From Dulcicalothrix desertica PCC 7102 (GTDB lineage: Bacteria > Cyanobacteriota > Cyanobacteriia > Cyanobacteriales > Nostocaceae): a stretch of 64,000 nt of DNA. A program made the translations under genes and the position numbers. The stretch is from positions 459,234 through 523,233 of the forward strand of contig NZ_RSCL01000003.1 in assembly GCF_003991905.1 (NCBI RefSeq). The letters are read 5' to 3'. The notes under the pieces were generated by a model that was not told the origin of the DNA, ran no database searches, and worked only from the letters and a program-made list of their open reading frames with translations. This document shows, piece by piece, positions 32,424 through 42,396 of this stretch (the stretch's first letter is position 1; each line of letters starts with the position of its first letter).

Positions 32424-32459
32424 GTAGGTTGGGTGGAGGCTTTGCGGAACCCAACCTAC
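32424..32459. terminator. Bidirectional hairpin between 32141 gene and nifJ
   Basis: GTAGGTTGGGT (32424-32434) and ACCCAACCTAC (32449-32459) form a perfect 11 bp stem with a 14-base loop between convergent genes. The nifJ stop codon (32456-32458) is inside the right arm. A short form of the same repeat is at 28776-28800. Confidence 0.6.
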
Positions 32460-34868
32460 AATTGAGCTAAATATTCGTACATTTTCCAACGCGCGTTAAC
32501 TTCGGCTTGAGCTTCATCGAGTAAGCGTTTGGCTAGTTCGGGTTTAGATTTAGTCAACATTTTGAAGCGGTTTTCTTGATACATTGATTGTTCTACAGGT
32601 TGTTTAGGTTTTTGGATGTCTAACAATAGAGGTTTTTTACCTTGTTTGATTAGGTCAGGATTGTAGCGATATAATAACCAGCGTCCACTATCAACGAGGC
32701 TTTTTTGATGGGTCATTGCTGTTGTCATGTTGATACCGTGGGCAATGCAGTGACTATAAGCAATTATTAATGATGGGCCATCATATGCTTCTGCTTCAAT
32801 AAAAGCTTTGAGTGTATGCTCATCACGGGCACCTATTGCAACGCTGGCGACATATATATTACCGTAGGTCATAGCAATTAAACCGAGGTCTTTTTTTGCC
32901 GCAGGTTTACCACTAGCAGCAAATTTAGCAACGGCGCCTTTTGGTGTTGATTTGGATGATTGTCCACCTGTATTAGAATATACTTCTGTATCCATTACTA
33001 GGACATTTACATTGCGACCGCTAGCAAGTACATGGTCAAGTCCACCAAAGTCTATATCATACGCCCATCCATCACCACCTACTATCCAAACGCTTTTACG
33101 AACGAGATAATCAGCAAGGGATTTGAGATGACTGGCATTTTCAAGCTTTTGCTTTAATACTTCTACTCGTTGACGTTGTTCGTATATATCAGCTTCGGTG
33201 TTTTGCGAAGCGTTTAATATTGATTTTACTAACTCTTTGTCTCCTGCTTCCCCCCATTTTTTTAATAGCTCTGCTGCATATTCTGCATGTTTATCTAAAG
33301 CAAGACGAAAACCAAAGCCAAATTCCGCGTTATCTTCAAATAAGTTATTCGACCAAGCTGGGCCTCTACCTTCGGCATTTTTTGTCCAAGGAGTTGTTGG
33401 TAGGTTTCCTCCATATATAGATGAGCATCCTGTGGCGTTGGCTATCATTGCTCTATCGCCAAATAGTTGTGTTAGTAGTTTTAAGTAGGGAGTTTCACCA
33501 CATCCTCCACAGGCGCCAGAAAATTCAAATAATGGTTCTTGGAATTGTTGCTGACGAATTTGGTTTAACTTGAGTTTAGTACGGTCGGGTAGAGATAAGT
33601 TTAAAAAGAAATCCCAATTTTGAGATTCTTGTGTACGCAAAGGTAACTGTGGTTCCATGTTTATGGCTTTGCGTTCGGGTTGCTCTTTGTTCCTAGCTGG
33701 ACATACTTCTACACAAATACCACATCCTGTACAATCTGATGGCGCCACTTGAATGGTAAATTTATCACCAGCAAAGTCTTTATCTTTGGCATTGGTTGAC
33801 TTGAAACTTGCAGGCGCCTTAACTAACTCACTCTCGTTATAAGCTTTACTACGTATTGCTGCATGAGGACAAACTATAACGCATTTACTGCATTGGATGC
33901 ACAAGTTGGTGTCCCATACTGGTATATTTTCTGCTACATCACGTTTTTCCCATTTCGCTGTACCTGTGGGAAAAGTTCCATCTGCGGGTAATGCACTTAC
34001 AGGTAAATTATCGCCTTCCCAAATCATCATTTTACCAAGTACATCGCGGACAAACTCAGGCGCACTCACTAAAGTTTGAATTTGTGGTTTTTGATTTTTG
34101 ATTAAATTGGGAATATCTACTTTTTGAAGATTATTTAGGGTGTTATCAACTGCATCTAAATTTTTACGAACAACATCGGCGCCTTTTTTACCGTATGTTT
34201 TTTCTATAGCTTGTTTAATTTTGGCGATAGCTTCGTCTTGAGGTAACACACCCGCTAAAGCAAAGAAGCAAACCTGCATAATAGTGTTGATACGTCCACC
34301 CATACCGCTATTACGGGCAACTTTATTCGCATCAATAATATACAGTTTGAGTTGCTTATCAATAATTTGCTGTTGAACTGAGAAAGGGATGTGTTCCCAT
34401 ACAGAATTACTATCGTAAGGACTGTTAACTAAAAAAGTGGCGCCTTCTTTAGCGTCTTTAAGAATATTAACCCGCTCCAAAAATACCCATTGATGACACC
34501 CAATAAAATTAGCTTTATCTATAAGATACGTTGAACGAATAGGTGTACTACCAAACCGTAAGTGCGATACTGTCATTGAACCAGATTTTTTAGAGTCATA
34601 GACAAAGTAACCCTGAGCATAATTATCTGTTTCTTCGCCAATAATTTTAATAGAGTTTTTATTGGCGCCGACAGTACCATCCGAACCGAGACCGTAGAAC
34701 ATTGCGCGGACTACTTTATCTGACTCGATAGAAAAGTTTGTATTTAATGGTAGTGAAGTATAACTAACATCATCATTAATACCGACAGTAAAGTGATTTT
34801 TGGGCTTTTCGCTCGCTAAGTTATCAAAAACAGCTTTTACCATTGCGGGTGTGAACTCTTTTGAAGAC
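32456..34868 (-). CDS. nifJ: Pyruvate:ferredoxin/flavodoxin oxidoreductase, C-terminal two thirds (interrupted gene)
   Basis: NifJ oxidises pyruvate to acetyl-CoA and passes electrons to ferredoxin or flavodoxin, a route to nitrogenase. The open frame from the internal Met at 34843 gives 795 residues; coding sense continues upstream to the repeat at 34857-34868 (SSKE-FTPAM before MVKAVF). Visible parts are the gamma-type domain (GLGSDGTVGANKNS), two 4Fe-4S clusters (CIQCSKCVIVCP and CTGCGICVEVCP) and the thiamine diphosphate domain (GACGGCGETPYLK and GDGWAYDIDFGG). The missing N-terminal third is at 41037-42194, beyond a 6.2 kb insertion. Alone this piece has no start site, so a functional enzyme requires excision of the insertion. 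Confidence 0.93.
34857..34868. repeat. Left attachment core (direct repeat)
   Basis: TCTTTTGAAGAC, identical to 41065-41076. Bases on both sides differ between the copies, so the shared core is exactly 12 bp. On the minus strand it encodes Ser-Ser-Lys of the nifJ junction. Confidence 0.88.
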
Positions 34869-34870
34869 TT

Positions 34871-34886
34871 TACAATACAGAGTTAC
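34871..34886. promoter_or_regulatory. Recombinase arm site, left end of element
   Basis: TACAATACAGAGTTAC, two bases inside the left core. Its inverse, matching 12 of the first 13 bases, lies at 41044-41058. In the excised circle the two would flank the core as an inverted repeat, as in attP sites of large serine recombinases. Confidence 0.6.
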
Positions 34887-35346
34887 AGCAAAATATTAAT
34901 TGTTTACTAGTTGTTTATCTATCATTGTTAGATTTTCTACATCGACTGTATCGATATTTTCTATGTAGAATTTTACTTGCTCACGCGGTAGGTGCTTTAT
35001 TTTGGCGTAAAGAATTGCGGTTTCAAGTAATATCGAGCGTGCTGTTTTATTTTTCATGTTTTTGTAATTTTTATGTAGCGCTATTATTCAAAATTAAACT
35101 TTTATTTAAAATTTTCTGTTAGTCTCTAACAATAAGTCGGTTAACGGCTTTTTAACTATATATTGGCGCCGTTTTTGTGCAAACGTTAAAATTCAATTAA
35201 ATTCTGATAATGTGCGTTTATTTCGTATGATGGAAGTACTCAACATACATGTTAATTTTTAAATAAATAGTAAAATTTTTATAGGAATATACGTAAAAGG
35301 ATAGAATCTTGGTGTATATAAAATATACTTCTAAAATTGGGATAAT
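34887..35346. other. AT-rich left part of the nifJ element, no convincing gene
   Basis: About 460 bases. An open frame with a TTG start at 34925-35122 encodes a Phe/Leu/Cys-rich string without family features and is not accepted. One GGCGCC lies near 35165. The final 100 bases probably hold the promoter of the lipoprotein gene. Confidence 0.5.
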
Positions 35347-35550
35347 ATGAGTATTACAAGAAAAGTTTCCTCTTCGATATTACTTTTCGCGGTTGTTATC
35401 TTAGTTCCTGCCCTCTCCTCATGTGGACAAGGAGGTAAGGAGGTTGGAAAGGCAGTAGTTGGTTCAGTTGTAGGATATGCTGTCAAGGAAGGACTCAATT
35501 GTGCAGTTAAAGGCGAGTGTCCGAATGCGGAAGCTGCATCGCTCCTCTGA
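35347..35550 (+). CDS. Lipoprotein, N-terminal part (probably frameshifted)
   Basis: The 67 residues begin with a signal peptide (MSITRKVSSSILLFAVVILV) ending in the lipobox-like LSSC, so Cys26 or so would be lipidated after cleavage. Next come a Gly-rich stretch (KEVGKAVVGSVVGYAVKEG) and CAVKGEC. The frame then ends after NAEAASLL. Immediately behind, in the next phase, a domain beginning SSEPDKAIKDYY continues to 35869. Together they would make a lipoprotein with a DUF4878/NTF2-like domain of about 170 residues. I infer a one-base frameshift near 35525-35550, by mutation or sequencing error. Confidence 0.6.
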   Translation: MSITRKVSSSILLFAVVILVPALSSCGQGGKEVGKAVVGSVVGYAVKEGLNCAVKGECPNAEAASLL

Positions 35551-35869
35551 ACCGGATAAGGCGATTAAAGATTATTATCAACTTATTAATCAGCGGCAGT
35601 ATTCAGATGCTTGGGCAAATTTAAGTAGTAGATTTCAGAATCTAAAACCAGAGAATAATTACAATAATTATGAAGAATGGTGGAATAAGGTTAATTCAGT
35701 AACAATCGATTCTATACAGTTAGTCGAAAAGGATAATCATACGGCTATTGTAGACGCTAAGTTAAGTTATTCAATGAAAGATGGTCGCAAAATAAATGAC
35801 CCATCCAGAATTACACTAATTCTTCATTCAAATGGAAAATGGCTAATTGACGACAAAATCAAAAGCTAA
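35477..35869 (+). CDS. NTF2/DUF4878-like domain, C-terminal part of the frameshifted lipoprotein
   Basis: The meaningful part starts near 35545: DKAIKDYYQLINQRQYSDAW, then LSSRFQ, EEWWNKVNSV and a closing beta-rich segment with SNGKWLIDDKI. That is the pattern of small cone-shaped NTF2-like domains found on cyanobacterial secreted proteins and lipoproteins. The first 20 codons of the open frame (35477-35540) overlap the lipoprotein in another phase and are unlikely to be translated. Without the signal peptide of the 35347 frame the product would stay in the cytoplasm, so the gene is probably inactive unless the shift is a base-call error. Confidence 0.6.
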   Translation: MLSRKDSIVQLKASVRMRKLHRSSEPDKAIKDYYQLINQRQYSDAWANLSSRFQNLKPENNYNNYEEWWNKVNSVTIDSIQLVEKDNHTAIVDAKLSYSMKDGRKINDPSRITLILHSNGKWLIDDKIKS

Positions 35870-35953
35870 GTATTTTTGAGCTAGTTTAAAGTAATTCAGT
35901 GGAGAGAGGCGCCACATAACACGAACTGGCGCCTGCCGCAGCAATTTCTGTTT

Positions 35954-36238
35954 ATGAACGACCAGCCTATCAACTTTAACATGACAGATACTGAGTATGC
36001 TGCATTATTAGAAAAAGGTTATGACCCACTCCTTGAGCAGCGGCTAATTGCGCTTGGTCAAAATCCTGAAGATGCGCGCGACTTTACCCGGTTTCTGGGT
36101 ATGGTAACGAAAAAACCGCCAACTAATGATGTAGAGTGGGAAGAAGTGTGCTGCGCGCATGGATGTGAAGCATTGCAACTTGACCGGGAAGGTTTGATGG
36201 TAGCGTGGAGCGAAGCAGAAAACGAAGATTTATCATAA
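35954..36238 (+). CDS. Hypothetical protein, 94 aa, nifJ element cargo
   Basis: Acidic, helical protein, not recognised. Visible features are MNDQPINFNMTDTEYAALLE at the start, a cluster RLIALGQNPEDARDFTRFLG, and a Cys/His group EEVCCAHGCEALQL near residues 64-78 that could bind metal. No signal or membrane segment. It is preceded by two GGCGCC sites near 35908 and 35929, and lies between the lipoprotein remnant and the ThiE-like gene on the same strand. Confidence 0.6.
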   Translation: MNDQPINFNMTDTEYAALLEKGYDPLLEQRLIALGQNPEDARDFTRFLGMVTKKPPTNDVEWEEVCCAHGCEALQLDREGLMVAWSEAENEDLS

Positions 36239-36347
36239 TCTGTAAATCTTCATCACTGATGAAGTAACAACTTCAACTGGAATAAGTTTGACAAGGCTAA
36301 TAACTTCAGGTTCTACAATCATTACTGCTACAAGAAATAGGGTTTAT

Positions 36348-36950
36348 ATGACACTAACAGTAAAACATTTCAAAAAAATCGCAATATTTGATTCCACATC
36401 AGTAATTGCCGAAGAGCTACTTTCTCTTGACTTGTTAAAGCTTGGTAAAAAAGTTACAGAGTGGGCAAAAATAGCTACCAATAATGGTGCAGATTCTTGC
36501 TATGTGCGTTTATATAATGCGAACAAAGAAACTGTAGATATAATTTTGGAGAATTTGTCTTATAAGGAATTACCAATTATAGTACCATTTTCTCTTAATT
36601 ATAAATCTTCTTTGATTAGTGCTTTTCATTTTCGAGAGAATGACAAAATTAAAACTCATCAGACTCTAGACAGTAATGTGCTGTTTGGGAAGTCATGCCA
36701 CTCGTTGAAATCTATTTTAGAAGCGGAACAGTGCGGAATAGACTATGTATTTTTTTCACCGATTTTTGAGACAAAAACTCATCCTTTATCTAAAGGAATT
36801 GGTCTAAGTATGCTCCGTTCAGCTTGTGAATCAACGCAAATGAGGGTTTTTGCCCTTGGAGGAATCAACGAAAATAATTATAGGCAATGTCTTGATGTAG
36901 GTGCGTCTGGTATTGCGGCAATTAGTATGTTCACAAAGTCCTGTAACTAG
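36348..36950 (+). CDS. Thiamine phosphate synthase / TenI-like protein
   Basis: About 200 residues from the ATG at 36348 (an upstream TTG at 36288 is possible). TIM-barrel pattern of ThiE/TenI: FGKSCHSLKSILEAEQCGIDYVFFSPIFET-like core, then FALGGINENN phosphate loop and GASGIAAISMF. ThiE couples the pyrimidine and thiazole parts of thiamine phosphate; TenI aromatises the thiazole. The N-terminal ATP-like region of ThiE is poorly conserved, so TenI or a diverged copy is as likely. It is cargo of the nifJ element. NifJ itself needs thiamine diphosphate, which makes the placement suggestive, though that link is speculation. Confidence 0.7.
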   Translation: MTLTVKHFKKIAIFDSTSVIAEELLSLDLLKLGKKVTEWAKIATNNGADSCYVRLYNANKETVDIILENLSYKELPIIVPFSLNYKSSLISAFHFRENDKIKTHQTLDSNVLFGKSCHSLKSILEAEQCGIDYVFFSPIFETKTHPLSKGIGLSMLRSACESTQMRVFALGGINENNYRQCLDVGASGIAAISMFTKSCN

Positions 36951-37213
36951 ACCCTGACAAGTAATATAAATTACCAAATCTATAACCATGCTCGTTCATG
37001 TCATAAGTTTTGGATTGAAACTGTCTGCTAGACGTTAAAGCTAGAGTCGATATATATCAAGCTTTTTAACCAAACGGTTTTAATTTTAGCCAAGATTCAT
37101 GCGGCTCAAAAATATTTGCAAACGTGTACTTTGAGGATTTGTCAGGACATGACTTTTAGGCGCCTTGGAATACATGACTCTTAGGCGCCGAAACTATTGA
37201 TTGACAAAAGCTA

Positions 37214-37747
37214 TTAAGCAGCGATTTCGTCTTGATTTTCTTCTGATGAAATTGCTACCAACTTGATATGCTTTCTACCTATATTGAGGGAAAATTCATC
37301 CCCTGGCTTTAAACCCAATTGTTTTGTATAAGCAGAACCTATTAGCAAGGCGCCGTTAGACTGCACTGAAATTCGGTAGCTAGCGCTACGTCCACGACTA
37401 TGCTTGTCCGTAGGGGTATCAAATGATATATCTTCTGCATCAAGTAGAGCGTTGAGAAATTTCATCATATTAACTCGCTCTACGCCATCTTTGGTGACGC
37501 TATAGTAGCCACAGGCTTTAGCTTTTTCTTCTTTACTGCTATTGGGCATTTCTTTAACTTTATCAGTTAATGCCTTACCTTCTAGAGCCTCGATTTGTTT
37601 AGCTTTTTTACCTGATGTCTCCTCAACTTTGGGCTTAATTTGTTTTACTTCCTGGGCTGGCGCCTCACTAACAGAGGGTTCACTTGTGAGTGCTTTTTTA
37701 GCTGATGCCTTGGGTTCTGAGGACTTCGTTATTTTATTTTTCGCCAT
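37214..37747 (-). CDS. cyAbrB family transcriptional regulator with basic N-terminal extension
   Basis: Residues about 55-177 match cyAbrB: GKALTDKVKEM, EEKAKACGYYSVTKDGVERV, NMMKFLNALLDAE, SASYRISVQSNGALLIGSAYTK-type AbrB fold, LGLKPGDEF, LGRKHI-like end. These cyanobacterial regulators bind AT-rich DNA and act on nitrogen, hydrogenase and carbon genes and, in Anabaena, on heterocyst-related promoters. The first 55 residues are a Lys/Ser/Ala/Pro-rich, disordered-looking extension absent from standard cyAbrB, resembling histone-like tails. It is carried by the nifJ element and transcribed in the nifJ direction. Confidence 0.88.
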   Translation of the reverse strand: MAKNKITKSSEPKASAKKALTSEPSVSEAPAQEVKQIKPKVEETSGKKAKQIEALEGKALTDKVKEMPNSSKEEKAKACGYYSVTKDGVERVNMMKFLNALLDAEDISFDTPTDKHSRGRSASYRISVQSNGALLIGSAYTKQLGLKPGDEFSLNIGRKHIKLVAISSEENQDEIAA

Positions 37748-38422
37748 GTTGACACAGTTGAGTTACGAAATTAATTTACATTTTCATGGAATTTCTTTAT
37801 TGTATAGAAATATTTGCTTTATGACAATAATTATTCACTCTGAGAGAATGTTTGAAAAGTGCTATTTTGTGTCATGAGTCGCGAACGTTAACGCAGTTTT
37901 CCCGCTTCTTAGCATCTCAGTATACGTCCCAAAACCTAGATTCTAGCAGTAAGGGCAAATGCTCCGCATTACGTTTTGTGTAGCGGAACTCGCTTGGGAC
38001 AATTTATATCTTGTCTGACTTTTCAAACAACCTCTGAGTGGCACCTGTTTTTTGTTGATGCAATCAGGAATACCAATAATTTCATAGTTGGCAAACTTTT
38101 TATAGTAATTCGGGGCACTACAATCCTATATAGTATAAAATAACTATAATAAATAGCTTTATCCCAAATAGTAGTTCGATTTTCCTTTACTGCACTTAAA
38201 GATTTGTAGGTATTGGCGCTCCCGCAAGCAATGCATCGTTTTACAAAAGCAATTACCAGTTTTCTTGTTATAACCGCTTGTTCAATTCTCAATGCAGTCC
38301 ACCAGCCGTATACAGAGTTTTTAATGCAACGAGCAGGATAAAAAGAAGGAATGCGCGTAGCCGATATTTGGTTGCGGCACAGGGAATGTTTCTTTTATGA
38401 TGGCTTCTATTGTTGGACTTAG
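37748..38422. other. Non-coding interior of the nifJ element
   Basis: About 675 bases between cyAbrB and the HEAT fragment. A minus-strand open frame at 38023-38292 (89 codons) has no convincing family features, no good ribosome site and erratic composition, so I leave it out. I see no repeats or RNA signals. Confidence 0.45.
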
Positions 38423-38689
38423 TGGTTCAGTGATACGCCAGCTATTCGAGATGCTTTATTTGCTCGCGTAATTGCAGAAACAGGAGAAGATGATACTAGT
38501 GCTGAAATTCGTGGAGAAGCATTACTCGGTTTAGCAATTAGGAAAGATGAACGGGTAATTAATCCGTTAATTGTAGAACTTAAAAGCGGGCGCGTCGGTA
38601 TACTTCCTGTTGAAGCAGCAAAAGAAATAGGAGATACAAAACTTTATCCAGCTTTGATTAATTTACAACTACATGTGATTGAAAATTAG
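38423..38689 (+). pseudogene. HEAT-repeat protein, C-terminal remnant
   Basis: Open but start-less frame encoding two to three HEAT-like repeats: AIRDALFARV, then AEIRGEALLGLAIRKDERV with INPLIVELKSG, then VEAAKEIGDTKLYPALI, ending at the TAG at 38687. A TAG lies at 38420 just before it. HEAT/ARM scaffolds of this kind often regulate or modify proteins. The 5' part is missing, so this is a relic inside the element. Its last 32 bases overlap the end of the DJ-1-like fragment on the other strand. Confidence 0.7.
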
Positions 38690-39165
38690 GAGCTTTGGCG
38701 TGTTTAGCTCCACGAGCAATTAATTTTGACTCCAGCAGGAACGGCATTACTTTCGTCAATCCGACTGCTTCTTCTTCTTCATTAGTGAATGCAGCTACAG
38801 TTTTTCCTTTCACCAAATATTCACCATTCGATAACTTTACATTCACAAGCGCTGCTGGACCATGACATACGGCGCCAACCAATGCTCCCCGTTCGTACAT
38901 TGATGCGGTAAGTTGCTGCAATGGTTTGTTATCGGGTAAATCCCACATTACTCCATGTCCACCAGCGAAGAAAATTGCTTGATAGTCGTTGGGTTTAACT
39001 TCTGCAGGTGCGAGGGTGTCTTGGATTTTTGCCATCACTGCTTTATTTTGCAATAATTGCAGATTTTTCGGGTCGCTTTTATCGTTGCTTTTAGGGTCGA
39101 TGGGAGCAGCCTTCCCTGTGGGACTAACAAAATCAACTTCGTAACCAGCCTGGGTAAAGGCAGGC
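38658..39165 (-). pseudogene. DJ-1/PfpI family protein, fragment truncated at its 5' end
   Basis: Reading frame of a type-1 glutamine amidotransferase-like (DJ-1/PfpI, Hsp31-type) protein. AFTQAGYEVDFVSPTGK lies at the upstream edge, then YQAIFFAGGHGVMWDLPDN and the nucleophile elbow GAVCHGPAALVNV with the usual Cys, then FTNEEEEAVGL and LPFLLE-type region, and an end at NFQSHVVVN. Family members are near 230 residues; here the first 40 or so residues are replaced by GC-rich DNA at about 39165, and the tail after HVVV is cut short. An internal TTG at 39053 could start a 131-residue product. Best read as a broken gene. Confidence 0.7.
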
Positions 39166-39399
39166 CTGACCGCGCAGTCAGTAAGCGCCTTCGGGACTAA
39201 GACAACCCGGGCGGCATGGCAGGGCAGACCTTCGACGTATCTCGTCTGCGTCGATGACCGCAGTACATCAGAAGCCCTGCAACGTTTCCATGCCGACCGG
39301 GCGAAGCGCTCTCACGACCTGCATACCGGTCACCACCCGTTCCTGTCACGACCCGACCTCGTCACCGAACAGATCATCAAAATACTCCGCACCGACTGA
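39163..39399 (+). pseudogene. GC-rich C-terminal fragment of an alpha/beta hydrolase
   Basis: The plus frame ending in TGA at 39397-39399 reads FGTKTTRAAW, then RPSTYLVCVDDRS, ALQRFHADRAK, and HTGHHPFLSRPDLV followed by a last helix. That is the end of an alpha/beta hydrolase of the kind whose catalytic His lies in GHxPFLS. GC content is clearly far above that of the surrounding DNA (about 60 percent by eye) and no GGCGCC occurs in it. It abuts the DJ-1-like fragment on the other strand at about 39160-39165. It looks like foreign DNA, from a high-GC bacterium, joined at a recombination point. Confidence 0.65.
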
Positions 39400-39445
39400 A
39401 GGCGCAACGTCTAAGGGACTTCCAAAAAACAATACCCAAAAATTT

Positions 39446-39508
39446 CTTGTGGGGTGGGCAGGAAAGCCCGCCTACAGTTTGAACGGGCAAGGATGCCCAT
39501 TCCACAAC
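39446..39508. repeat. Pair of stem-loop repeats 'gggca..gccc'
   Basis: Two units of the family found at 20196, 26284 and 59783, in facing orientation (outer CTTGTGG and CCACAA), behind the recombinase gene within the nifJ element. This shows that chromosomal repeats have entered the element. Confidence 0.7.
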
Positions 39509-39581
39509 ATGGAGAATTAAATTTTTGGAAGTTCCTTAGTTTACTGAAACTTTTCAATAACTCTGGAGGCGCCTCTACTAG

Positions 39582-41036
39582 CTACACGTTTAGTTCAATC
39601 GAAACAGGCTTCCCGTCGCGAATGAGTATTTTGTTAATTAAAGCCCGGTATATTGGAATTTTTTGTTCATCTGTTAAGAATTGCCAGTATTCAGCGTCGC
39701 CGAAAGTATCACGTAGGATTTGATACTTGTATCGGTCGAGCGTGCTTGAACTCTTGTCCTGAGCAAGTAATACCCGCAATTGGCTATTGAGTTCAGCAAT
39801 GGCGCCTTTAACAGTTGGGTTGTTACTGCCTAGTGCTTCGAGATTACTAATCTCAGAGCGTAAGTCGCGAATGTTTTCGGGTTCAATTAATTCGTCCGTC
39901 TTGTCTAACGAATAGCTGGCAACCTGTTCTGCTCTTTGCGCTAATGCTTCAACTACAGCTTTCTCAGTAAGAGAAGCTGGCGCCATTTTTTGTTGACTAC
40001 AGCTGCGAGTAGCCCAATTCTTGCATTGATAGTATGGTTTTTTTGATGAACCAGAACCTTTGTAACACGTACTGTTACACTCAGCGCAAATCACTAGTCC
40101 TGAGAGTGGGTGTGACTGGCGTGTTGAACCGAAACCGCGCGTGTTTCTATTCCACTCTAATATTTGCTTAATCTCTAAATATTCACTTTCAGTAATAATT
40201 ATTTCTTCAGGGTGGGTGTTGTAAATTATTTGCTCTTCGTACTGCCCCGAAGCTTGTCTGTAGCGAGTGTGCCCACGTAACACGGGTGAGTTGAGCCAAT
40301 AGCGAAGACCAGGTGCCGAAAATCTAAACATATCAAGCGCAATACGTCCAGCCCATTTATTATGATGCGACTTTACCCAAATGCCATATTTTTGATTAAT
40401 CCCTTGTAAACATCGCCTGATACTTCGTTGTTCAAGAAATGTTGATTTAATATCAATTGCTATTTGGTAGCGCGTTAACGAAGTTTGTCCGCAGGACGAT
40501 AATTCAGATTTTTGATGTATCAAACACAAGAACGGGCGCCTATCTCTCTCAAACTTCTCTCCCACTTTTATTAAGCCAAACGGCGCCTTGGTCGCAGCTC
40601 CTTTATTCCGTAAATGTTCCCACCCGTGACGTATCGATTCACTTTTTTGGTCGCTATGATGTTGAGCAAGTATAGCGACAATACCCGCTTGCATTTTACC
40701 TGCTGCTGTTGTTAAGTCGATTGGTTCGTCCAACACCACAAGCTGAACTTCACTTTTGATAAAATCTTCGACCAAAGTAAACCACTGCTTACCACGCCGC
40801 GACAATCGGTCAACCCGCGTTACTACAACTTTAGTTACTCGCCTCGCTCTAACGTCCTCAAGTAAGCGCTCTAGTTCTTCGCGGCGATTACCTTTGTAAC
40901 CTGACTCAATATCTATATATAACTTTTCGGCGCCTGCATGTTTCAGACGCTCGACTTGCTGTTCTAATGCATTTGTATCAGCTTGATGTTTTGAGCTAAC
41001 ACGCGCGTATCCTACAATCATTGTTTTTCGCGACAT
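39582..41036 (-). CDS. Large serine site-specific recombinase (XisF-like excisionase)
   Basis: Protein of 484 residues. The resolvase domain comes first (VGYARVSSKHQ with catalytic Ser14; VVTRVDRLSRRGKQ with the active-site arginines). A Recombinase domain follows (about 180-300), then a zinc ribbon (CAECNSTC and YQCKNWATRSC) and a coiled-coil tail. This is the architecture of phage-type large serine integrases and of XisF, which excises the fdxN element of Anabaena. Its ATG (41036-41034) immediately follows the TAA of the truncated nifJ frame, so it is transcribed from the nifJ promoter and perhaps translationally coupled. Location at the edge of the element, beside the attachment site, fits a dedicated excision role. 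Confidence 0.93.
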   Translation of the reverse strand: MSRKTMIVGYARVSSKHQADTNALEQQVERLKHAGAEKLYIDIESGYKGNRREELERLLEDVRARRVTKVVVTRVDRLSRRGKQWFTLVEDFIKSEVQLVVLDEPIDLTTAAGKMQAGIVAILAQHHSDQKSESIRHGWEHLRNKGAATKAPFGLIKVGEKFERDRRPFLCLIHQKSELSSCGQTSLTRYQIAIDIKSTFLEQRSIRRCLQGINQKYGIWVKSHHNKWAGRIALDMFRFSAPGLRYWLNSPVLRGHTRYRQASGQYEEQIIYNTHPEEIIITESEYLEIKQILEWNRNTRGFGSTRQSHPLSGLVICAECNSTCYKGSGSSKKPYYQCKNWATRSCSQQKMAPASLTEKAVVEALAQRAEQVASYSLDKTDELIEPENIRDLRSEISNLEALGSNNPTVKGAIAELNSQLRVLLAQDKSSSTLDRYKYQILRDTFGDAEYWQFLTDEQKIPIYRALINKILIRDGKPVSIELNV

Positions 41037-42194
41037 TTAGAATGTACTCTGGATTGTACAACATTCTTTTGAAGACAACCCATAACGACCACCAATTATT
41101 TTAGGAGTGCTGAGTGATGAGTGCTGAGTGCTGAGTGACCAAGTTTCGTGAATAGCGGTGACTACATCTAGATAAAGTGGTTCTCCTGCGCTTCCAGGTT
41201 CTTTGGTACGGTCGAGAACAGCTATTGATTTTACGGTACTGGGCAATACGTCTATAAATTTTTGTACGTCGAAGGGACGATATAACCGCACTTTTATAAC
41301 ACCAACTTTTTCACCGTGTGCGTTCAAATAATCTACTGTTTCGTGTACTGTTTCACATCCCGACCCCATAATAACGATGACTGAAGTAGCATCACTGGCG
41401 CCGTAATATTCATATATTTTGTAATATCTACCTGTACGCTTTCCAAAATCATCCATGACTTGCTGAACAATATCTGGACAAGCTTGATAATAAAGATTGC
41501 CGCCTTCTCTAGATTGAAAATATACATCGGGGTTTTGGGCTGTACCACGTAACACAGGACGGTCAGGAGTTAAAGCGCGCGCACGGTGTGCCAAAATTAA
41601 ATCTTCATCTATTACACTTTTTAAATCATCATCTTGTAATAATTCTACTTTCTGCACTTCGTGAGAAGTACGGAAACCATCAAAAAAATGCATAAAACTA
41701 ACTCGTGCTTTGAGGGTAGCAGCTTGAGCTATCAAAGCAAAATCATGTGCTTCTTGTACCGAAGCAGAACATAACATTACAAACCCAGTTGCGCGCGCTG
41801 CCATGACATCACTATGGTCGCCAAATATTGATAGTGCATGGGTAGCAAGTGCGCGTGCCGCAACGTGAACAACAATACTCGTAAGTTCACCAGCAATTTT
41901 ATATAAGTTGGGAATCATTAACAACAACCCTTGTGATGAAGTGAAAGTTGTTGTTAGTGAACCAGCTTGCAAGGCGCCATGTGCAGCAGCAACGGCGCCT
42001 CCTTCACTTTGCATTTCAATAACACTAGGAACGGTACCCCATAAGTTTGTACGGTTATCAGCAGACCAAGCATCTGCCCATTCTCCAATTGCCGAAGAAG
42101 GTGTTATTGGATAAATAGCAATTACTTCGTTCAAACGGTAAGCTACACGAGCAACCGCTTCGTTTCCATCTATAGTGGCAAATTTTTTACCCAT
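41037..42194 (-). CDS. nifJ: Pyruvate:ferredoxin/flavodoxin oxidoreductase, N-terminal third (interrupted gene)
   Basis: The 385 residues start with MGKKFATIDGNEAVARVAYRL and continue with YPITPSSAIGEWADAW (alpha domain), then FTSSQGLLLMIPNLYKIAGE and the FHFFDGFRTSHE-type segment (FMHFFDGFRTSHEVQK). The next domain contains GSGCETVHETVDYL and VGVIKVRLYRPFD. Normal homology stops at IIGGRYGLSSKE; the following CCTIQSTF and stop come from the inserted element. The rest of the protein is at 32456-34868. Truncated as it stands, it cannot bind the Fe-S clusters or thiamine diphosphate. A normal start ATG is at 42194. Confidence 0.95.
   Translation of the reverse strand: MGKKFATIDGNEAVARVAYRLNEVIAIYPITPSSAIGEWADAWSADNRTNLWGTVPSVIEMQSEGGAVAAAHGALQAGSLTTTFTSSQGLLLMIPNLYKIAGELTSIVVHVAARALATHALSIFGDHSDVMAARATGFVMLCSASVQEAHDFALIAQAATLKARVSFMHFFDGFRTSHEVQKVELLQDDDLKSVIDEDLILAHRARALTPDRPVLRGTAQNPDVYFQSREGGNLYYQACPDIVQQVMDDFGKRTGRYYKIYEYYGASDATSVIVIMGSGCETVHETVDYLNAHGEKVGVIKVRLYRPFDVQKFIDVLPSTVKSIAVLDRTKEPGSAGEPLYLDVVTAIHETWSLSTQHSSLSTPKIIGGRYGLSSKECCTIQSTF
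41044..41058. promoter_or_regulatory. Recombinase arm site, right end of element
   Basis: GTACTCTGGATTGTA, six bases inside the right core and inverted relative to 34871-34886. With the 12 bp core and the 2 and 6 base spacers, the circle junction would have 20 bases between arms, centred on a TT within the core. Confidence 0.6.
41065..41076. repeat. Right attachment core (direct repeat)
   Basis: TCTTTTGAAGAC, second copy of the 12 bp repeat at 34857-34868, in the same orientation. Confidence 0.88.
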
Positions 42195-42308
42195 GATATG
42201 CGCTCAAGCAACAGCAAATACTTAACATTGTTAGTTTTTAAGTATTAATTTTCTGTTACTCTCAGACAAACGTTACACCCATAAATGTCTACTAGATGCA
42301 CATTTTGA

Positions 42309-42396
42309 TCCCCCCAACCCCCCTTAATAAGGGGGGCTAAAATTTGTTCTTTTTCCTGTCCCCCCCTTATCAAGGGGGGCTAGGGGGGATTAAAAT
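42309..42396. repeat. Large GC-rich inverted repeat 'cccccc ... gggggg'
   Basis: Two hairpins in a row (CCCCCCTTA.TAAGGGGGG type) with outer arms GATCCCCCC and GGGGGGATTA. It lies 115-200 bases upstream of the nifJ start on the minus strand, so it should shield nifJ from upstream transcription. A short form is at 30921-30946. Confidence 0.7.

Follow-up and report, generated by a model that had tools for sequence, protein, structure and literature searches.

A 6.2 kb interruption element, probably of the programmed-excision kind, in the only nifJ gene found in Dulcicalothrix desertica PCC 7102

The 64,000 nt stretch of the Dulcicalothrix desertica PCC 7102 genome analysed here, hereafter the window (contig NZ_RSCL01000003.1, positions 459,234 to 523,233), harbours nifJ in two portions, separated by an interval that carries a recombinase gene at one end and a gene for a 53 amino acid protein at the other. 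As stated in the original prediction, which was made from the letters of this DNA, both portions lie on one strand, the minus strand, with residues 1-377 encoded at 42194-41065 and the remainder at 34868-32456. The 5' portion (41037..42194) runs beyond residue 377 into eight element-encoded residues and a stop codon, and matched positions 1-367 of the TIGR02176 profile with 632 bits, below the model cut-off of 911 owing to the partial nature of the protein. The 3' portion (32456..34868) starts at a 12 bp repeat, with its first internal ATG at 34843 opening 795 codons, and matched profile positions 370-1167 (1208 bits). The split separates the PorA-like region of NifJ from the PorC-like one.

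Deletion of the interval together with one repeat copy (6,208 bp) yielded a joined sequence of 3,531 nt, a multiple of three with a single terminal stop, in which 1,176 open codons read ...GLSSKEFTPAM... across the junction, in agreement with the length and joined reading that had been predicted. The full-length NifJ is estimated at ~130 kDa from its 1,176 residues. Alignment of the joined frame to full-length NifJ, which had been put forward as a check, was borne out by three element-free congeners (G061, G065 and G063), whose uninterrupted nifJ genes matched the joined protein near end-to-end with identities of 97, 96 and 89%, respectively, and encode SSKEFTP across the join position. Just before the junction, nifJ contains an in-frame tandem repeat of 7 bp units (GAGTGCT, 4.7 copies; 41105-41137), which encodes part of a linker, SLSTQHSSLSTP; relatives including G061 and G063 differ in sequence there.

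The nifJ gene was found to be split at the same codon (377), with an orthologous recombinase gene, in four of the seven genomes of the genus, namely PCC 7102 (G000), Calothrix PCC 7103 (G060), Calothrix NIES-4105 (G062) and the metagenome-assembled genome Calothrix FI2-JRJ7 (G064), and was intact in the other three. The codon-377 elements measure 6,208 bp in PCC 7102, 33,629 bp in PCC 7103 (a stretch that contains 100 N), 126,823 bp in NIES-4105 and 79,116 bp in FI2-JRJ7. Additional elements were situated at approximately codon 34 of nifJ in FI2-JRJ7 (36,537 bp) and in a genome of another genus, G029 (14,699 bp); the recombinases of these two share 53% identity with each other and ~30% with that of the window. 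In FI2-JRJ7 (contig C80, ~5.0-124 kb), two different serine-recombinase elements consequently divide nifJ into three parts.

PCC 7102 and its six congeners each hold one nifJ, and no second nifJ was retrieved from the PCC 7102 assembly (11.4 Mb, 109 contigs) either by a POR domain search or with the full joined protein. Ratios of nonsynonymous to synonymous substitution rates (dN/dS) over 21 genome pairs ranged from 0.04 to 0.10 for the 3' portion and from 0.05 to 0.16 for the 5' portion, and over six pairs from 0.10 to 0.16 for the recombinase gene, whose reading frame is open in all four elements; judged by these ratios, both nifJ halves and the recombinase gene are under purifying selection. 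The intact second nifJ with decay of both halves, named in the original prediction as the contrary outcome, was therefore not what was found.

The recombinase gene, designated xis (39582..41036, minus strand), encodes an XisF-type large serine recombinase of 484 amino acids (Pfam Resolvase, 7.6e-33), which matched NF041201, the NCBIfam XisF equivalog model, over residues 7-474 with 432.4 bits against a cut-off of 375. It adjoins one junction and reads inward. In PCC 7102, PCC 7103 and NIES-4105 the stop codon of the truncated nifJ abuts the xis start codon (TAA ATG), an anatomy that suggests co-expression of the truncated nifJ and xis. A phage origin of xis was considered and set aside, the closest phage relatives being 26% identical.

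A scan of the two junction regions for exact direct repeats no shorter than 10 bp yielded a single one, TCTTTTGAAGAC (GTCTTCAAAAGA on the gene strand), which occurs twice in the 64 kb window, at 34857-34868 (attR, minus strand) and 41065-41076 (attL, minus strand). The 12 bp repeats reported for the element ends are hence present in this strain, but they are not the unit shared among the elements: by inspection, the repeat shared between junctions is 9, 7 and 5 bp in the other three codon-377 genomes, the 12 bp length is peculiar to PCC 7102, and only the core AAAGA (34857-34861 and 41065-41069 in the window) is common to all four. When the ends of the PCC 7102 element were joined as a circle, dyad symmetry emerged between ACTCTGTATTGTA and TACAATCCAGAGT (gene strand), the element-side arms at 34871..34883 and 41046..41058 (both minus strand), centred on the AA at the start of the core. 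This AA was the best dyad centre in all four codon-377 elements, with circle-junction scores of 16, 15, 17 and 19 of 25, against 6-11 for attB, attL and attR at the same centre. None of 2,000 shuffles reached the observed dyad at that centre in any of the four elements; when the best of 50 centres was allowed, 21, 93, 4 and 0 of 2,000 did so, and a score of at least 16 was attained at 33 of the 127,880 centres of the window. The single dyads are therefore moderate cases, and it is their coincidence with the core that is convincing, bearing in mind that the four are related sequences and not independent trials. At the nifJ site near codon 34, the dyad scored 18 (FI2-JRJ7) and 17 (G029) of 25 and peaked inside the short shared stretch, at CA and CG, respectively, such that the circle-junction dyad was centred in the shared core in all six elements tested, with attB compared in four. 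The attP sites of large serine integrases are dyad-symmetric about a central dinucleotide and distinct from attB, and the site anatomy here, a dyad attP with a differing attB, matches that arrangement.

At the end opposite xis lies a gene of 53 codons (34896..35057, minus strand), a candidate for a recombination directionality (excision) factor, which each of the four codon-377 elements carries at this end; in NIES-4105, extra DNA lies between it and attR, the two being ~560 bp apart. The protein had no match at E < 0.01 in Pfam, PHROGs or NCBIfam, and its dN/dS over six pairs was 0.09-0.24, calculated from only 45-50 codons. The xis end (~1.5 kb) and the last ~200 bp with the 53 amino acid gene are all that the four elements have in common, so that the compact 6.2 kb element has two parts conserved in the four relatives, namely xis with attL and the small gene with attR. 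In the codon-377 elements and in the second element of FI2-JRJ7, the small gene occupies the end opposite the recombinase gene and is oriented outward, towards the junction, so that circularisation would place it ahead of xis in the same direction, across attP.

A profile built from five copies of the small protein (the four from codon-377 elements and one from the far end of the second FI2-JRJ7 element) found family matches in 42 of 217 genomes at E values up to 0.05. Neighbourhoods were inspected for 30 family loci, four of which are the nifJ ones. A serine recombinase lay tail to tail with the small gene at 22 of the 26 non-nifJ loci, the corresponding figure being 2 of 45 for control loci that surround nifJ, nifD-family and hetR genes; as close relatives are among the 22, they do not amount to as many independent events. 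The two genes overlap at 19 of these loci, are 6-9 nt apart at two and 233 nt apart at one. The four loci without an adjoining recombinase were L119, L128, L135 and L137, the latter two being poor family members. Within the genus, recombinases adjacent to family members adjoin coxA pieces that begin at profile position 66-68 (L039, L044, L049) or 153 (L042), and at L043 the recombinase adjoins the start of a nickel hydrogenase large subunit, an observation of adjacency only.

A repeat search of the window matched a 23 bp segment upstream of nifJ to another upstream of the 53 amino acid gene. Both contain the motif TAACAGAAAATT, located 64 nt before the ATG of nifJ (42247..42258, minus strand) and likewise 64 nt before that of the small gene (35110..35121, minus strand); the motif common to the two genes can also be written TAACAGAAA. 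TAACAGAAAATT has two copies in the window and five across the PCC 7102 genome, with no occurrence of the reversed pattern, and of the remaining three sites two are inside reading frames and one has no downstream open reading frame (ORF) of 45 codons. Among relatives, TAACAGAAAA is present at -64 to -68 of nifJ in six genomes of the genus (PCC 7102, PCC 7103, NIES-4105, FI2-JRJ7, G061 and G065) and at -55 to -64 of the small gene in all four codon-377 elements. In G063 and G028, TAACAGAATA is found farther upstream of nifJ, and neither form was seen in the other relatives shown; the motif is absent before the small-gene copy in the second element of FI2-JRJ7. The form TAACAGAA was within 250 nt of nifJ at five of 29 loci parsed, out of 30 retrieved, these being the five most similar to the window NifJ.

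The relaxed pattern TAACAGAAAWTT is not over-represented genome-wide, with 20 sites in two genomes versus 22 for the reversed pattern. Nonetheless, seven of the 20 are situated 37-68 nt before nifJ (two) or a small-family gene (five), one (L159) precedes an unrelated ORF of 481 codons by 69 nt, and the remainder are mostly inside frames or far from ORFs; it is the placement of the motif, and not its abundance, that is non-random. Taken together, the 53 amino acid gene and the interrupted nifJ appear, on the basis of these sequences, to share a control signal. Ahead of the motif, the sequence in many cases forms a palindrome (GTTAGNNNCTAAC) at the small gene, and to a lesser degree at nifJ. The motif matched no known regulator, and a literature search with its letters returned no cyanobacterial paper among the matches listed. 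CnfR binding sites were set aside as its identity, as the portion of the source consulted (PMC8510180) offers no sequence for comparison. NtcA boxes (GTAN8TAC) were also rejected, as the 700 nt ahead of nifJ contained none, nor did the 300 nt ahead of the small gene; the pattern occurs 30 times in the window against 15.8 expected, a count reached by none of 100 shuffles, and is located at -129 of the NIES-4105 small gene and -131 of the L122 copy. Farther upstream of nifJ, at 42310-42387, is a long C/G-rich inverted repeat of the CCCCCCTTAATAAGGGGGG type, which resembles the corresponding sequence of some congeners but not of others.

We consider it likely, from the evidence above, that the 6.2 kb interval is a site-specific interruption element, inserted in the only nifJ and of the kind subject to programmed excision in heterocysts, and that an XisF-class recombinase would restore the gene. 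Its nature as a nifJ element, as the original prediction had proposed, with a recombinase of its own is strongly supported by the intact XisF-class gene at the junction, by the same site being filled in four of seven genomes and empty in three, by the purifying selection on both nifJ halves and xis, and by the failure to find a second nifJ. The recombinase would recombine attL with attR at the AA inside the AAAGA core to release a circle and a restored nifJ. As the downstream cistron of the truncated nifJ transcript, xis would be driven by the nifJ promoter, and the 53 amino acid protein, induced from its own promoter by the nifJ signal via the shared motif, would act as the directionality factor that permits excision. 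Excision would then coincide in time and place with the induction of nifJ, presumably in cells developing into heterocysts, and since xis would leave the nifJ promoter with the circle, the switch would be one-way in a terminal cell. NifJ production would accordingly be confined to cells from which the element has been removed, and vegetative cells of this strain are predicted to contain no intact NifJ.

A broader proposal is that the small proteins, a family of 50-70 amino acids, are the directionality factors of XisF-type interruption elements in Nostocaceae, wired to a host control signal by the shared TAACAGAAAATT motif and with the recombinase read out from the interrupted gene, such that the element senses the programme of the gene it breaks. 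We regard this as a tentative idea, with the chances somewhat against it, and several observations weigh against parts of it and of the mechanism above. In FI2-JRJ7 xis opens 16 nt beyond the ATG that abuts the nifJ stop, at the next ATG, the abutting one being in another frame. The coxA-linked recombinases point away from the coxA piece, hence expression by read-through from the host gene does not apply throughout. The predicted structure of the 53 amino acid protein (pLDDT 76) gave no fold match with E < 1. The small gene is present in five of the six nifJ elements but was not found in that of G029, which was read whole and rescanned; it was not seen in the 2.5 kb around three recombinases on plasmids, of which two carry the annotation xisF, and was identified at just six of 16 genus recombinase loci (L039-L054) in the stretch examined, of which L046 and L053 are pieces of the second xis of FI2-JRJ7, whose small-gene copy sits at the opposite end. 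Finally, TAACAGAA lies at -54 to -64 at only 15 of the 30 family loci, and is missing from L115, the sole coxA-linked copy among them. A hypothetical ORF before the Trichormus plasmid xisF was examined as a possible small partner and rejected, as by eye it reads as a broken recombinase start.

The alternative that survives best is that of a selfish site-specific integrative element that homes to a conserved nifJ site and excises rarely and at random, without developmental control, leaving NifJ nearly absent. Synonymous divergence (dS) between PCC 7102 and NIES-4105 was 0.087 for xis versus 0.615 for the 3' and 0.359 for the 5' portion of nifJ, and between PCC 7102 and FI2-JRJ7 it was 0.663 for xis versus 0.233 for the 3' portion; this discordance indicates that elements were exchanged between lineages or reinserted at the same codon. 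Such disagreement between the histories of xis and its host gene, together with a mostly unshared cargo and the three of seven genomes that lack the element, is what a selfish element moving between lineages into one codon would leave. Mobility is, however, compatible with developmental excision, and both the purifying selection on the two nifJ halves, with no second copy found, and the shared upstream motif, which argues for control, make the selfish alternative unlikely.

The cargo of the window element includes an AbrB-like regulator (37214..37747, minus strand; PF14250, 3.1e-30), of which an 87% identical copy is present in the PCC 7103 element and a fragment in that of FI2-JRJ7, with none found in that of NIES-4105. 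In Synechocystis, cyAbrB2 is described as a repressor of nifJ (PMC11368403). The other cargo ORFs tested recur in none of the other three elements. The remaining cargo of the window element comprises an ORF with a C-terminal TMP-TENI domain (36288..36950, plus strand), which has no homologue in those elements, a DJ-1/PfpI family fragment (38658..39053, minus strand; PF01965, 4.1e-10, profile positions 54-116 of 165) and small ORFs of 67, 130 and 94 amino acids without a Pfam match (35347..36238, plus strand).

Less probable still is that NifJ is produced as two polypeptides from the unexcised gene, a 5' PorA-like one and a 3' PorC-D-B-like one initiated at the ATG at 34843, from a transcript starting at the 53 amino acid gene. 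Multi-subunit POR enzymes exist, the gene is split between the PorA-like and PorC-like regions, an internal ATG is present, and the small gene reads towards it on the same strand. Against this, the EFTPA codons, which lie between the core and the first internal ATG and would be translated as NifJ only once the element is gone, exhibit only synonymous third-position differences among the four filled genes, a pattern that translation of the joined frame would produce, and relatives with an empty site encode one protein. A nifJ killed by insertion would be in keeping with an interrupted gene lacking an intact second copy, yet is very improbable given that neither half contains an internal stop in the four filled genomes (for the 5' half of FI2-JRJ7, from the second element onward), that dN/dS does not exceed 0.16 in either half and that xis is open in all four. 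An assembly artefact, conceivable in a draft of 109 contigs, can practically be dismissed, as the same junctions recur in four separate genomes, with that of NIES-4105 titled nearly complete.

The distribution of interrupted nifJ genes was surveyed in 217 Nostocaceae genomes, 211 of which had a NifJ match, nearly full-length in at least 138 genomes among the matches listed; three of the 138 (G158, G164 and G170) had a match of 71-72% only, which may be a paralogue. Of the genomes beyond the 138, 75 were searched again, and the genus was searched separately. Outside the genus, the sole nifJ element recognised in this survey was that of G029. Breaks of nifJ at contig ends were apparent in G025, G078, G082, G091, G109 and G148, from the regions read, and in G021, G168 and the second G023 copy, by coordinates, hence the counts of interrupted nifJ are lower bounds. 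On a short contig of a poor draft (G147, contig C783; L103), nifJ stops after approximately residue 372 and is followed by 2.6 kb of other sequence with no serine recombinase.

The window is also rich in the palindrome GGCGCC, with 120 occurrences against 2.6 expected, and contains no copy of GCGATCGC (HIP1; 0.26 expected). GGCGCC is similarly dense in the corresponding stretches of PCC 7103, NIES-4105 and FI2-JRJ7, with nine copies of GCGATCGC in the 133 kb NIES-4105 stretch; among the loci L002-L006, two from other genera (L005 and L006) had no GGCGCC and eight and seven copies of GCGATCGC, respectively. The abundant palindrome thus seems, from these counts, to have been replaced in this genus.

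PCC 7102 carries a HetR_C family protein and nifD, and Calothrix PCC 7103 is treated as heterocyst-forming in the sections consulted of a survey of such elements (PMC4874684). Two further genes look interrupted in PCC 7102: nifD, which is split near its 3' end by ~88 kb (C5, 351660-441098; profile positions 1-435 and 427-466, same strand), and a coxA on C69, which lacks the first ~66 profile positions and stands beside the start of a serine recombinase.

Interruption of nifJ is itself already known. Table 1 of Hilton, Meeks and Zehr (2016; PMC4874684) records two nifJ elements of one variant, and Calothrix PCC 7103, with 11 elements, is among the genomes of that study. The interrupted gene is therefore the same, and as PCC 7103 holds an orthologue of the window element, that orthologue is probably one of the two recorded. 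Given one variant in Table 1 and two sites in the present work, one nifJ site may be unreported there. Added here are the AAAGA core with its dyad, the candidate 53 amino acid factor and the shared motif; the dyad, the small gene and the motif are not described in the parts of Hilton et al. consulted, nor was any description of the small protein family, the promoter motif or the dyad in such elements found in the literature searched, which left subscription papers mostly uncovered. The same source mentions a hypothetical protein in five hupL elements (PMC4874684), which could be related to the small family.

The recombinase of the window element is, like that of the fdxN element of Anabaena PCC 7120, an XisF equivalog, but whereas the fdxN element encodes XisF together with XisH and XisI (PMC4874684, as far as consulted), the window element instead has the 53 amino acid gene at its far end. 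No XisI match was detected inside any of the four codon-377 elements, and neither XisH nor XisI was found among the eight window-element ORFs scanned with Pfam, XisH having been sought in the window element only. Genome-wide, XisI-family matches numbered 23 in PCC 7102, 25 in PCC 7103, 36 in NIES-4105 and 22 in FI2-JRJ7, and such abundance outside the nifJ elements hints at roles beyond fdxN excision. The nifJ element bears on how excision by a serine recombinase is confined to particular cells, and on how directionality may be achieved without XisH and XisI; its promoter motif may mark genes that trigger DNA excision.

Two systems from other hosts and cell types offer a parallel, in that each likewise pairs a serine recombinase, a large one in the first, with a partner factor; no sequence relation to either is claimed, and the role of the 53 amino acid protein stays that of a candidate. 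According to the parts of the source consulted, the SP-beta prophage, which interrupts spsM in Bacillus subtilis, encodes SprA and the 58 amino acid SprB, conserved in SP-beta-like elements, and regulated expression of SprB times an excision that restores the host gene in a terminal cell (PMC4191935). Similarly, in the skin element of Clostridioides difficile, as described in the portion consulted, the serine recombinase CD1231 acts with the directionality factor CD1234, which is made only in the terminal cell (PMC5025042).

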